Shown: piece after piece, positions 11,672 to 18,601 of the stretch
How the letters are laid out: each line of letters opens with the position of its first letter
Position numbering within the stretch: position 1 is the first letter of the stretch
Source of the DNA: an uncultured Lachnospiraceae bacterium
GTDB taxonomy: Bacteria > Bacillota > Clostridia > Lachnospirales > Lachnospiraceae
NCBI GenBank assembly: GCA_947166195.1
Contig: CAMVDF010000005.1
Coordinates: 1 to 32,079 of the forward strand
Direction: 5' to 3'
DNA: 32,079 bases
Notes under the pieces: generated by a model
What the model was told of the DNA's origin: nothing
Databases searched by the model: none
Seen by the model: the letters and a program-made list of their open reading frames with translations, nothing else
Position numbers and translations under genes: made by a program

Positions 11672-11708
11672 AAAAGATGACAGAGGGACAGTCCCCCTGT
11701 CATCTTTT
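11672..11708 (+). repeat. Long dyad element 1 (ATGACAG...CTGTCAT type)
   Basis: AAAAGATGACAG 11672-11683 / CTGTCATCTTTT 11697-11708, inner GGGA/TCCC. Confidence 0.85.
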
Positions 11709-11778: not shown

Positions 11779-11807
11779 TTGAAAAAACCGGTAGTAAATG
11801 CTACGAT
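11779..11807 (+). promoter_or_regulatory. Predicted promoter of PD-(D/E)XK unit 1, TTGAAA-N17-TACGAT
   Basis: TTGAAA 11779-11784, spacer 17, TACGAT 11802-11807; same boxes and spacing as unit 2. Confidence 0.6.
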
Positions 11808-11980
11808 ATTTCTTGGAGCAGTTATTTCTACGGCGCCTCTATTATGAGGCAGCATCTGATATATGAAGATTCCTACATTCTGAAATTTCCTGCTTTAAAT
11901 CCAACTTATTTCAACAAAGCAGGAAGAGGGATGTAAAAGACATTCGACTCCTGCGGATCATCCACGAAAGGAGACGAAAA
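11794..11980 (+). repeat. Leader repeat copy 1 (~187 bp, structured)
   Basis: Near-identical and equal in length to 12939-13125; hairpins listed in findings. Confidence 0.85.
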
Positions 11981-12853
11981 ATGAAATACAACTGGTTTAA
12001 GAGGATCTGGTACAGGATAAATCCTAAACACAAGGACAGGCTTTTCTGTACCATTTTTGGGAAAGAAAAGTACAAGAGGTATGCACTGGATCTGTATAAT
12101 GCCATAAACGGCAGTGATCATAAGAGCCTGGCGGATCTGGAGATCATTACCCTGGAGGATGCCATCTACATCAGGATGAAAAATGATGTGGCATATCTGA
12201 TAAACGGAACCATAGCTATTTACGAGCATCAAAGCACTGTAAACCAGAACATGCCTATCCGGGGATTCATGTATATGGGGGAGCTTTACAGCAAGATACT
12301 GAAAAGACAGAAAGCGAAAATATACAACAAAACACTCGTAAAGATACCAACTCCCCAGTACATAGTGTTTTATAACGGAACGGATGATTATCCCGAATGT
12401 AGCAAGCTGAGGCTGTCGGACGCGTTTATGACACCGACGGACAGAAATGATTATGAATTCACAGCAACAGTGTATAATATCAACCTTGGGAAGAATACGG
12501 AACTTCTGGATTCATGTGATTCACTGAGGGGTTACAGTATTCTCATAGACCGAATCAGGACGAACAGCCTTACAATGTCCCTTGAAGATGCAGTAGATGA
12601 AGCAGTAAAATGGTGCATAGAAAATGGTATTCTTGTGGATGTATTGGAAGAGGAGAGGTCAGCGGTTATGTTAGAGATGCTTACTGAATTTGATGAAAAA
12701 ACATACGAAGAAGGCCTGCGTGAAGAAGGCCGTGAGGAAGGCCGTGAACAAGGACGCAAGGAAGAGCGAGCCAACACCGAGCGCGAGCGAAAAAGAGCAG
12801 ATGATTTAATGGCGGAGCTTGAAAAGTACAGATCAAAGTATGGCAGTCTGTGA
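11981..12853 (+). mobile_element. PD-(D/E)XK (Rpn/PDDEXK_2-like) family transposase/nuclease, apparently full length
   Basis: 290 aa; D-x(n)-ExQ-type core NDVAYLINGTIAIYEHQS; charged EEGREEGR tail; SD AAAGGAG 11967-11973. Confidence 0.7.
12707..12766 (+). repeat. 12-bp tandem repeat coding (REEG)n in the transposase-like tail
   Basis: Units gaagaaggccgt / gaggaaggccgt / gaacaaggacgc. Confidence 0.8.
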
Positions 12854-12923: not shown

Positions 12924-12952
12924 TTGAAATCAATCATCGTAAATGCTACGAT
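12924..12952 (+). promoter_or_regulatory. Predicted promoter of PD-(D/E)XK unit 2, TTGAAA-N17-TACGAT
   Basis: TTGAAA 12924-12929, spacer 17, TACGAT 12947-12952. Confidence 0.6.
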
Positions 12953-13125
12953 ATTCATTGAAGCAGTTATTTCTATGGCGCCTTTATTATGAGGCTGCAT
13001 CTGATATATGTAGATTCCTACATTCTGAAATTTCCTGCTTTAAATCCAACTTATTACAACGAAGCAGGAAGAGGAATGTAAAAGACATTCGTCTCCTGCG
13101 GATCATCCACGAAAGGAGACGAAGT
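12939..13125 (+). repeat. Leader repeat copy 2 (~187 bp, structured)
   Basis: Aligned by eye to 11794-11980 without a net length change. Confidence 0.85.
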
Positions 13126-13793
13126 ATGAACAAAAAACTGAATAAAGAGAAGCAGCGACCGGTACAGAGCGCAGAGTCAAGGCAGATGAAACCTCTGGAG
13201 GAAATGGATGTCATCGATAATTTCCTTTTTACGGAGATTGCCTTTGATGAAGAAACGGGAGGGTGAGGTATTACAGTGATCTGATAGATGTTCAGCTGCT
13301 GAGTACGGGAACTGATTATGATAAACTCCCGAACCTTGCGATTATATTTATACTGTCGTACGATCCATTTGGAAAGAATGCCATGTATTATGAAGCGGGG
13401 ACTACATTAAAGACCCATCCGGAGATACCTTATGATGACGGTATCAGGAGGATTTATCTGTATACGGGAGGAGAACTTCCGGAAAACGCAGATGAGTACG
13501 ACAGGAGGCTTCAGGCGCTTTTGAAATACATAGAGAAAAGCACGGAAGAGAATGCGACCGATGACACGACAAAGAGGCTTGACGAGATTGTAAATACAGC
13601 AAAAAAGAAGAAGGAAATCGGGGTGAGATATATGAAGAGCTGGGAAAGAGAACAGGAGCTGATAGCTGAGGGAAAAGCAGAAGAACGGGCCAACACCGAG
13701 CGTGAGCGCAAGAGAGCGGATGATGCAGAGGCAAAGGCAGACGATTTAAGGGCGGAACTTGCAAAATACAGGTCAAAGTATGGCAGTCTGTGA
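13126..13793 (+). pseudogene. PD-(D/E)XK family transposase remnant with internal deletion
   Basis: MNKKLNKEKQRPVQ...DNFLFTEIAFDEETGG stops at 13266; RYYSDLIDVQLLSTGTDYDKLPNLAIIFILSYDPFG... resumes in another frame at 13263; the nuclease-core section expected between them is missing. Confidence 0.75.
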
Positions 13794-13794
13794 G

Positions 13795-13813
13795 ATGACA
13801 GGGGGACTGTCAT
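13795..13813 (+). repeat. Dyad element 3 (ATGACAG GGGGA CTGTCAT)
   Basis: Perfect 7 bp arms; looks like a shortened relative of dyad 1. Confidence 0.75.
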
Positions 13814-13874
13814 GTAGATTCTTACATTCTGAAATTTCCTGCTTTAAATCCAACTTATTACAATGAAGCGGGAA
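13812..13874 (+). repeat. Truncated leader repeat copy 3
   Basis: atgtagattcttacattctgaaatttcctgctttaaatccaacttattacaatgaagcgggaa matches the middle of copies 1 and 2. Confidence 0.85.
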
Positions 13875-13914
13875 TGATGAGGTCATGGATTTTGGACGTA
13901 ATGGAGGTGTGGAT

Positions 13915-15279
13915 ATGAAAAAAAATGAAATGATGAAAAGGATTTCGGCAGTTTTGCTTGCTGTGGCACTTGCAGTAGGACAGTGTGTCATAGCTTACGG
14001 TGAAGAGACGGCCGCACCAGAGGATTCCGTTTCTCAGGAAGCAGTCACGGAAAAGATCGTGACTGAGGAAGCGACAGTAGAAGAACCTGAAGCAAATGAA
14101 CCTGTGGTAAATGAACCTGAGGCAGGTGAGCCTGAAGTAAGTGAGCCTGTACAGGAAGAACCCGGAGCAGGAGGAGCTGAGGCAGATGAACCGTCAACCG
14201 GACTGCCCACAGGGGAAGTATCGGAGCCGGAGATCATGCAGGAGAATGAACCTGCGGGAGAGGATGTTCCGGCACAGATTTCTTTTGCCCGTATTAACGA
14301 GGGCGGTTCTCCAATACCTGTAGGTGCAAAGGTAAACCTTAAAGAGGAGTTTGGACTTGACAGCGACTGCAAGGGGGTGAAGTATACCATCACCTCGGGA
14401 AAAAGCCTTGCGGAGATAAGCGGAAGCACTCTCATTGCAAAAAAAGCCGGAGATGTGGATGTGAAGGTAACCTACAAATATGACGGGGAAAAATCAGAGA
14501 ATGAGACTTCATTCACCATATATACGGTGGGATTCAGAAAGAAGACGGTGACCCTGAATGAAAAAGGAGAGTACGATGCCACTCAGAACCTTAAAGGAGA
14601 TACAGTGGAAGGATCACCAACCTGGAGCAGCTCTGCACAGACCGTTGCAACCGTAGATCCCTCAACCGGAAAGGTGAATGTGCTGGCAGGCGGTACGACC
14701 ATGATAAGTGCGGAGTACTCATACGGTGAGAAGACAAAGATATGCAAGTTCAAGCTGTATGTGAAGCTTCCGGGCTTAAAGGTATCTGAAAAGAAGATCA
14801 AATTCGGAGGAACCTTTTCCACAAAGATCATCAACCTTGAAAAAGGTACACAGGTCAGCTGGTATCTGGAAAACGGCGAGACCAGGGCGGCCTTTATCGA
14901 TCAGGAAAAGGGAAAGATAAAGATTACCGGACTTGCAACGGATGATAGCCCGGTGCTGCTCCACGCAAAGGCCGGATCTGAAGAGCTGACCTGCAGAGTT
15001 ACGACGACGGAACCATATCTTGGCGGTCTTCCGAAAAATTATGATGAAGAGGGAATGGTCGTTGTGAAAAGGAAAAATACGAAGCAGTTTTCGGTAAAGG
15101 GTATCGCAAAGGGAACCCCCGTGACATGGTCTTCAAGCGATGAGGAAACTGTTTCGGTCACATCAAAGGGCCTGGTAAAGGCAAAGCAGTACGGGGGTGC
15201 GACCGTCACCGCAAATGTGGAAGGCTACGGAGAGCTGAGCGTATATATAGAGGTGCCAGATCCTGCAGACAGAGAATGA
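13915..15279 (+). CDS. Secreted Big2-type (Ig-like) domain protein
   Basis: Signal peptide MKKNEMMKRISAVLLAVALAVGQCVIAYG; EP-rich linker; Big2-like VTWSSSDEETVSVTSKGLVKAKQYGGATVTANVEGYG; SD ggaggtg before 13915. Confidence 0.8.
   Translation: MKKNEMMKRISAVLLAVALAVGQCVIAYGEETAAPEDSVSQEAVTEKIVTEEATVEEPEANEPVVNEPEAGEPEVSEPVQEEPGAGGAEADEPSTGLPTGEVSEPEIMQENEPAGEDVPAQISFARINEGGSPIPVGAKVNLKEEFGLDSDCKGVKYTITSGKSLAEISGSTLIAKKAGDVDVKVTYKYDGEKSENETSFTIYTVGFRKKTVTLNEKGEYDATQNLKGDTVEGSPTWSSSAQTVATVDPSTGKVNVLAGGTTMISAEYSYGEKTKICKFKLYVKLPGLKVSEKKIKFGGTFSTKIINLEKGTQVSWYLENGETRAAFIDQEKGKIKITGLATDDSPVLLHAKAGSEELTCRVTTTEPYLGGLPKNYDEEGMVVVKRKNTKQFSVKGIAKGTPVTWSSSDEETVSVTSKGLVKAKQYGGATVTANVEGYGELSVYIEVPDPADRE
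14083..14172 (+). repeat. 15-bp minisatellite coding (EPxxx)n
   Basis: gaacctgaagcaaat / gaacctgtggtaaat / gaacctgaggcaggt / gagcctgaagtaagt / gagcctgtacaggaa / gaacccggagcagga. Confidence 0.8.
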
Positions 15280-17489: not shown

Positions 17490-17734
17490 CGGACGCAGGT
17501 ACTGTTTTTCGACGTTCTTTTTCGAGCCGTACTGATACTTGGAAAGTACTCGCAGAACAGGGATGCCGGTACATGGATGTACCGGCAAGGCCGCATGAAC
17601 ACGGATGTGAATTGAGGCCGACCCGTGACGCTCGCAAAGAATATATGCACTTTCCTAGTATCATAGGCGAGAAAAAACTAACGAGAAAAACAGTAACTGC
17701 GTCAGCGAAAAACAGTATAGAAAAAGGAACAACC

Positions 17735-18601
17735 ATGTACATTTCTGATAAATGGAAAGAATATGAAGTAATAGATGCCACTCAGGGCGAAAAACTTGAG
17801 CGTTGGGGAGACTATATCCTCGTCCGCCCCGATCCGCAGGTAATCTGGAACACTCCAAAGGAGAATCCCCTGTGGCACAAAGCCAACGGAATATACCACA
17901 GGAGCAGCAAAGGCGGCGGAAGCTGGGAATTCCGTGACCTTCCGGAGGAATGGCAGATCCACTACGGACAGCTCACCTTTAACCTCAAACCCTTTGCCTT
18001 CAAACACACCGGCCTCTTTCCCGAGCAGGCCGCAAACTGGGACTGGGCAGCGGATCTCATAAAAACCAGCGGCAGACAGATCAGGATACTGAACCTTTTT
18101 GCCTATACCGGAGGTGCTACCATGTCAGCAGTGCTTGCGGGAGCTCATGTCACCCATGTGGATGCCTCAAAGGGCATGACAGGCTGGGCAAAGGAAAATG
18201 AGACGGCATCAAAGCTGCCCCATACATCCTTTCGTTATATAGTCGAAGACTGCGTCAGATTTGTGGATCGTGAGATCAGACGAGAAAGCAGATATGATGC
18301 CATCATCATGGATCCTCCCTCCTACGGCAGGGGCCCGAAGGGCGAGATCTGGAAGCTGGAGGACTGCGTCTTTCCGCTTTTGCAAAAGACGGAAAAACTG
18401 CTTTCCGATGATCCGCTCTTCTTTTTGATCAATTCCTATACAACAGGACTGCAGAGTGCGGTACTCACCTATATGATGAAGCTTGCGTTCAAAAACAGGA
18501 AAACGAAACTTATAGAAGCAGATGAAGTGGGACTTCCCGTAAAGGATGCGGGCACAGTACTTCCCTGCGGCTGTTCCGGAAGGACGGTATTTGGCGGATG
18601 A
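17735..18601 (+). CDS. Class I SAM-dependent (rRNA-type) methyltransferase
   Basis: ILNLFAYTGGATMSAVLAGAHVTHVDASKGMTGWAKEN and IIMDPPSYGRGPKGE motifs; start chosen at 17735 (MYISDKW) after aaaggaac. Confidence 0.85.
   Translation: MYISDKWKEYEVIDATQGEKLERWGDYILVRPDPQVIWNTPKENPLWHKANGIYHRSSKGGGSWEFRDLPEEWQIHYGQLTFNLKPFAFKHTGLFPEQAANWDWAADLIKTSGRQIRILNLFAYTGGATMSAVLAGAHVTHVDASKGMTGWAKENETASKLPHTSFRYIVEDCVRFVDREIRRESRYDAIIMDPPSYGRGPKGEIWKLEDCVFPLLQKTEKLLSDDPLFFLINSYTTGLQSAVLTYMMKLAFKNRKTKLIEADEVGLPVKDAGTVLPCGCSGRTVFGG

Follow-up and report, generated by a model that had tools for sequence, protein, structure and literature searches.

A probable default-OFF translational ON-switch in the leaders of rpn-type PD-(D/E)XK genes of Lachnospiraceae

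Rpn proteins are widespread. They are encoded by YhgA-like, Transposase_31/PDDEXK_2 and TIGR01784 genes, and the targets of the RNA leader described here belong to these or to related PD-(D/E)XK groups. Rpn proteins are toxic and one of them protects against phages (PMC10327210), overexpression of Rpn is toxic (PMC5350276), and the context in which these proteins are described includes DNA cleavage (PMC5350276, PMC10327210). No RNA leader is described in the two E. coli Rpn papers, and in the literature we found no link between rpn-type genes and a riboswitch or structured-RNA motif, although unnamed entries in supplementary motif lists may hold one. The closest regulatory systems are translational riboswitches, with which our leader shares its 5' position, a helix-closed sensor-like domain, exclusive folds and a platform of Shine-Dalgarno sequence (SD) and anti-SD, and ermC-type attenuators, in which, as here, pairing of segments 1:2 and 3:4 hides the SD and pairing of 2:3 frees it.

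Here, we describe a window of 32,079 nucleotides from an uncultured Lachnospiraceae bacterium (contig CAMVDF010000005.1, positions 1 to 32,079 of the forward strand), to which the contig JAGACK010000033.1 is near-identical. An earlier note on this DNA had described four alternately pairing segments, A to D, before a gene starting at 11981. All four lie where it placed them and pair as it described. A (11887-11896) and B (11916-11925) form a perfect 10-bp pair; B (11919-11924 and 11929-11934) can instead form 6 + 6 bp, one of them G-U, with C (11949-11954 and 11940-11945); and C' (11946-11952) pairs with D (11969-11975) with the single mismatch A11947 x A11974. The set was incomplete, as it missed a further segment, A0, the promoter and an outer extension of A:B (UACAUUCU at 11874-11881 with GGGAUGUA at 11928-11935). 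The features of this first copy are as follows:

11779-11807, + strand: promoter by sequence, with TTGAAA (11779-11784), a 17-bp spacer and TACGAT (11802-11807)
11816-11828, + strand: A0, GAGCAGUUAUUUC, with GAGCAG (11816-11821) and AUUUC (11824-11828), from tree-aware covariation
11833-11853, + strand: P1 hairpin inside the A0-A domain (GC-GCCUC / GAGGC-A-GC), from folds
11862-11879, + strand: P2 hairpin, AUGAAGAUUCCUACAU, from folding and sequence comparison (copy 2 has a perfect AUGUAG/CUACAU)
11882-11896, + strand: A, GAAAUUUCCUGCUUU, common partner of A0 and B
11916-11935, + strand: B, AAAGCAGGAAGAGGGAUGUA, pairing with A (predicted OFF) or C (predicted ON), with a near-invariant GCAGGAg
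11940-11954, + strand: C, ACAUUCGACUCCUGC, the anti-SD, pairing with B (predicted ON) or D (predicted OFF)
11969-11978, + strand: D, AGGAGACGAA, containing the SD of the gene at 11981, from sequence and folding
11981-12853, + strand: regulated gene, 290 aa, Rpn/YhgA-like PD-(D/E)XK, from Pfam

A0 was recognized by comparing leader copies from the window genome and its relatives. Its partners within A (GAAAUUUCCUGCUU) are 11890-11895 and 11882-11886, so that A has two partners, A0 on its 5' side and B on its 3' side. In place of P1, three relatives (G013, G029 and G022) have hairpins of differing sequence. Over 105 copies, a -10-like box is present in 104 (50% in shuffles), in most of them 8-11 nt 5' of the GCA of A0, and of the 63 -35 boxes detected, 51 form a sharp peak at a spacing of 17 nt. 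Since the promoter ends just 5' of A0 and the boxes are placed in this way, the transcript would begin with A0 or close to it. The lowest-energy fold of the copy 1 leader combines the outward-extended A:B with C:D, and the SD is hidden in it. Against dinucleotide shuffles, the folding z-score is -4.1 (211 nt) or -2.6 (116 nt) for copy 1 and -4.6 for copy 2.

The window holds two complete leader copies (11816-11981 and 12961-13126) and one that is truncated, and two further copies lie outside it in the same genome, on contig 15. The features of the second and third copies are as follows:

12924-12952, + strand: copy 2 promoter, with TTGAAA (12924-12929), 17 bp and TACGAT (12947-12952)
12961-13125, + strand: copy 2 leader, with A0 (12961-12966), A (13035-13040), B (13064-13069), C (13094-13099) and SD (about 13114-13118)
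13126-13793, + strand: decayed rpn-type gene behind copy 2, a 46-aa start and then a second frame (13263-13793)
about 13812-13874, + strand: copy 3, a leader remnant with P2, A and B present and A0, C and D absent

The copy 2 leader is 92% identical to that of copy 1 and keeps all five segments, and it has U-A at the place of the C:D mismatch, which makes the helix there perfect. The decayed gene behind it has the same N-terminus, MKPLEEMDVIDNFLF, as intact relatives. Units 1 and 2 share the leader and a C-terminal coding tail (12761-12853 and 13680-13793), and the rpn subfamilies in between differ, as though the two units had traded gene bodies while keeping their shared ends. Truncated copy 3 precedes a Big_2 domain gene (13885-15279). 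A REP-like palindrome, AGATGACAGGGGGACTGTC, lies beside the rpn units (11672-11708 and 13793-13811), half of it adjoins truncated copy 3, and similar repeats, GAGACAGGGGGACGGTCC, occur near leaders in L015 and L004.

If the leader were the end of a mobile element, its fold acting as a DNA hairpin for a putative transposase, one would expect multiple copies in a genome, truncation of some, exchanged gene bodies and nearby REP-like palindromes, as are seen here. Any reading at the DNA level must account for the placement of promoter and SD and for the many G-U pairs. The order of promoter, A0, SD and start codon is fixed, the SD is gated in the predicted folds, and we noticed no matching right end. 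We consider a mobile end very unlikely.

The earlier note had proposed searching related genomes with a covariance model, and such models do recover the leader. We built three, from five copies (R1), 43 copies (R2) and 102 copies (R3). Of the 48 genomes of the genus, R1 detects it in 30 at E<=1, and 20 of these also pass E<=0.01. Across Lachnospiraceae, a family of gut and rumen bacteria, R2 finds it in at least 76 of 397 genomes at E<=0.01 and R3 in at least 65 of 299 genomes and 64 of 298 genera at E<=0.001; because 8-11 candidates were scored per genome, these family-wide counts are lower bounds. The leader is a real, widespread structured RNA upstream of PD-(D/E)XK genes. It is indeed present on unit 1, for which it was first described, and it is a family-wide feature rather than one peculiar to that unit. 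An order-level search matched the same family only. The class-level search gave four matches of low E-value in other families, of which three were examined: two look like chance, and in G674 the leader stands beside a short remnant resembling the rpn C-terminal tail; G955 is the remaining fourth. One query each against phages, plasmids and viral contigs gave no match to the element. The earlier note recognized no known class, and Rfam 15 agrees, with no leader match at the gathering score, where only the unrelated TwoAYGGAY RNA and a group II intron were hit, and none near its threshold when thresholds were relaxed. The TwoAYGGAY RNA (RF01731, 70.8 bits, 17516-17678) overlaps the start of a methyltransferase-like ORF (17573-18601), and the group II intron match (RF02005, L220 527-609) lies soon after the start of a leader-bearing rpn-type gene.

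We tested the pairings for covariation in a segment-anchored set of 108 non-redundant copies; in the null model, every column evolves on a FastTree tree independently of the others. Of 3570 column pairs, two are significant at E<=0.05, and both belong to A0:A. The first is U-A in 59 copies, G-C in 37 and A-U in 6; the second is A-U in 77, U-A in 21, G-U in 4 and C-A in 4. Selection by the search models does not account for this covariation: none of them includes the second pair among its base pairs, and the first is kept in all 41 of the 41 copies whose scores far exceed the cut-off. No tree-aware significance was obtained for A:B, B:C or C:D in the 108 copies, partly because their cores are invariant.

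Swapping segments between copies gives a second view of the pairing. The earlier note expected homologous leaders to covary at A:B, B:C and C:D, and cognate pairing appears at all three: in 36 copies, swapped segments pair more weakly for A0:A, A:B, B:C and C:D (0 of 5000 permutations each), and four control pairings lose nothing. Among 11 copies of less than 70% identity, 14 (A0:A), 9 (A:B), 0 (B:C) and 11 (C:D) of 5000 permutations did as well. Family-wide, 97.9% of A0:A cells are paired against 85.1% when permuted, and A:B (z 6.7) and B:C (z 6.3) stand out; these counts are inflated towards pairing for A, B and C, whose anchors were chosen partly by complementarity, and not for A0. Across the family, C:D does not reach significance (z 1.8), since the core of this helix consists of the invariant SD/anti-SD and the register of its extension shifts; B:C is likewise not significant in the 15 distant copies. 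A:B contains many G-U pairs, in keeping with an RNA helix rather than a hairpin in DNA.

Folding in silico connects these pairings to the SD. In an RNA ending just after A, the median probability of A0:A is 0.98, and it exceeds 0.5 in 108 of 108 copies; in the finished leader the median is 0.00, and A:B and C:D win. With A present, P(C:D) is 0.99, P(B:C) is 0.00 and the SD is 14% unpaired (86% paired); with A removed, P(B:C) rises to 0.62, P(C:D) falls to 0.13 and the SD is 43% unpaired. The SD is freer without A in 77 of 83 copies; when A is instead shuffled at its own position, 66 of 83 respond alike. A copy 1 construct starting 14 nt 5' of A is already in B:C, because the outer A:B extension is cut off. 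The computation yields two mutually exclusive folds predicted to gate expression, as in a riboswitch. Both the swap tests and the predicted gating sustain the logic of the earlier note, in which A:B leaves C free to hide the SD and B:C exposes it. Taken together, the folding results indicate a leader that is OFF by default, passes through a co-transcriptional stage with A0:A closed, and would be ON if A0:A were held. The ON fold lies above the minimum free energy by 7.7-7.8 kcal/mol in the window copies and by a median of 8.9 kcal/mol in the set, and a gap of 6-12 kcal/mol implies that ON needs a strong input or kinetic trapping.

From these results we propose a mechanism. Transcription would start at or just 5' of A0, and A0:A would close first, enclosing a hairpin-bearing, UCU-rich domain. 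Were A0:A to last while B and C emerge, B would pair with the anti-SD C, leaving the SD in D free, and the nuclease would be made. Were A0:A lost, B would take A from A0, C would pair with D, and translation would be off. Since A0:A held would mean ON, a binder or stabilizer of the A0-A domain would switch the gene on. The leader is thus, probably, a cis-acting, default-OFF translational ON-switch before rpn-type PD-(D/E)XK genes, built as a five-segment relay A0-A-B-C-D. Sequence and computation show the segments, their competing pairings and the conservation of these, the association with genes and the predicted gating of the SD; we infer that the switch operates in cells, that A0:A is its ON state and that an external input exists.

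Two other kinds of control bear on the same folds. The first is attenuation of the ermC type, in which ribosomes on a small ORF over A and B would move the switch. A 30-codon open frame does cross A and B in copies 1 and 2 (MR[QL]HLIY..KFPALNPTY..AGRGM), with a similar one in G013, but it is broken in G029 and G022, the frame is not depleted of stops relative to frame 1 in 108 copies (107 vs 117 and 162), and the frames are open in 37, 30 and 14 of the 108. We give this reading almost no credence; the stop counts largely refute a conserved translated leader ORF across segment 1. The second is transcription attenuation, for which there is no terminator U-run in the leader: the SD is the end of C:D, and an A-rich stretch and then the start codon come after it.

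It is also conceivable, if fairly unlikely, that the switch has no input and simply holds expression of a toxic nuclease low and in pulses, A0:A existing briefly on each transcript. In favor of this, OFF wins in nearly all finished leaders and Rpn overexpression is toxic (PMC5350276), but a plain SD-blocking hairpin would suffice for it, and that A0:A has been conserved in spite of its competitor A:B speaks for selection on switching.

If the ON-switch does respond to an input, the input would act on the A0-A domain. The interior of this domain is of variable length, with anchor distances of 51-112 nt, and hardly any position in it is fixed. UCU occurs 3.7 times per copy in it against 1.8 in mononucleotide shuffles, with commonest spacings of 7-9 nt, UUCUA is enriched 3 times over dinucleotide shuffles, and the interior UCUs are more often unpaired than the other pyrimidines. 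In known aptamers the binding pocket is conserved. We found no conserved ligand-binding core between A0 and A, only the enrichment of UCU repeats, and an interior so variable is unlike metabolite aptamers, so that a protein or RNA seems a more probable signal than a metabolite.

The same switch could be a classical riboswitch, with a small molecule binding the A0-A domain to turn translation on; the aptamer-like 5' domain, the closing helix whose 3' strand is also part of the expression platform, and co-transcriptional folding would suit it, but the interior of variable length with almost no invariant positions does not, and we think it unlikely. That a protein or RNA recognizes the interior UCU motifs is a reasonable possibility, although we would stop short of calling it likely; candidates include an RNA-binding protein, the encoded nuclease and a factor made during infection. 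The enrichment, spacing and unpaired state of the motifs favor it, and gated synthesis makes sense given the toxicity of Rpn proteins and the phage protection that one of them provides (PMC10327210), but the UCUs may be incidental, arising from U-rich single strands or from constraints on pairing.

The genes behind the leader are of several kinds. The window protein was called Rpn-type in the earlier note, and it does match PF04754, although at 21.0 bits it sits exactly at the cut-off of 21; PF12784 reaches 19.6 bits, below the cut-off of 27.4. It has no NCBIfam match, and TIGR01784 is matched by 6 of 11 relatives. Matches of the window protein to SmpB in the PDB (E about 0.002) were taken as chance. 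An SD and a nearby ORF follow 117 copies; of these, 111 (~95%) precede PD-(D/E)XK-type genes, as judged by clustering of N-termini. These comprise 45 YhgA-like and 42 PDDEXK_2-like genes, two further groups of 10 and 9 that are weakly assigned (one PF04754 match in the group of 9, none in the group of 10), 3 Uma2 (PF05685) and 2 AAA-ATPase_like (PF09820), the last of which we take to be PD-(D/E)XK-associated. A Prok-JAB-like protein stands behind two leader copies. In isolate D16-36, which lay outside model building, the leader precedes a protein like those of the group of 9. The leader occurs in about 7 of 60 PF12784 upstream regions of the genus and therefore marks a subset of these genes.

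The window and G013 share a near-identical gene start, MKYNWFKRIWYRINPKHKDRLF, behind leaders of different type, AAGCAG in the window and AAGCAU in G013; on these sequences, leader type and gene type are exchanged between loci. In L024 (276-378), an rpn leader carries GCAGGAG / CCUCCUGC / AGGAGG, resembling B-C-D, with no A0-A part seen, and is possibly a shorter related switch. Within the window gene (11981-12853), an in-frame ATG at 12668 is preceded by GAG GAG AGG, and SD-like codons recur before this ATG in most of eight relatives with the same motif; it may be the start of a 61-aa C-terminal small protein like the E. coli RpnS antitoxins.

A switch before several nuclease families in about a fifth of the sampled Lachnospiraceae genera would provide a handle on the control of Rpn proteins, and identifying its input would tell when these nucleases are wanted. 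More speculatively, and with more doubt than belief, the leader may be an undescribed Lachnospiraceae RNA regulator that senses a state such as phage attack or DNA stress through its UCU-repeat domain and induces diverse PD-(D/E)XK nucleases. If this were true, toxic and possibly antiphage enzymes of several families would be under one RNA control.

We read the leader as an RNA switch of an undescribed class, one that would work like a translational riboswitch or attenuator, with membership in either putative. From translational riboswitches it differs in having no conserved binding pocket, in its five-segment relay and in its PD-(D/E)XK nuclease-type targets, and from ermC-type attenuators in having no conserved leader peptide and an extra upstream segment, A0, that competes for segment 1. 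Like the mobile/repeat sequence candidates (MRSC) of a 50-genome survey of non-coding RNAs (PMC11109978), it is a structured motif near transposase or nuclease genes with several copies per genome; unlike the MRSC, its orientation, promoter and SD placement are fixed. To the known designs of RNA switches, it would add a five-segment relay whose sensor helix forms first and is outcompeted afterwards.
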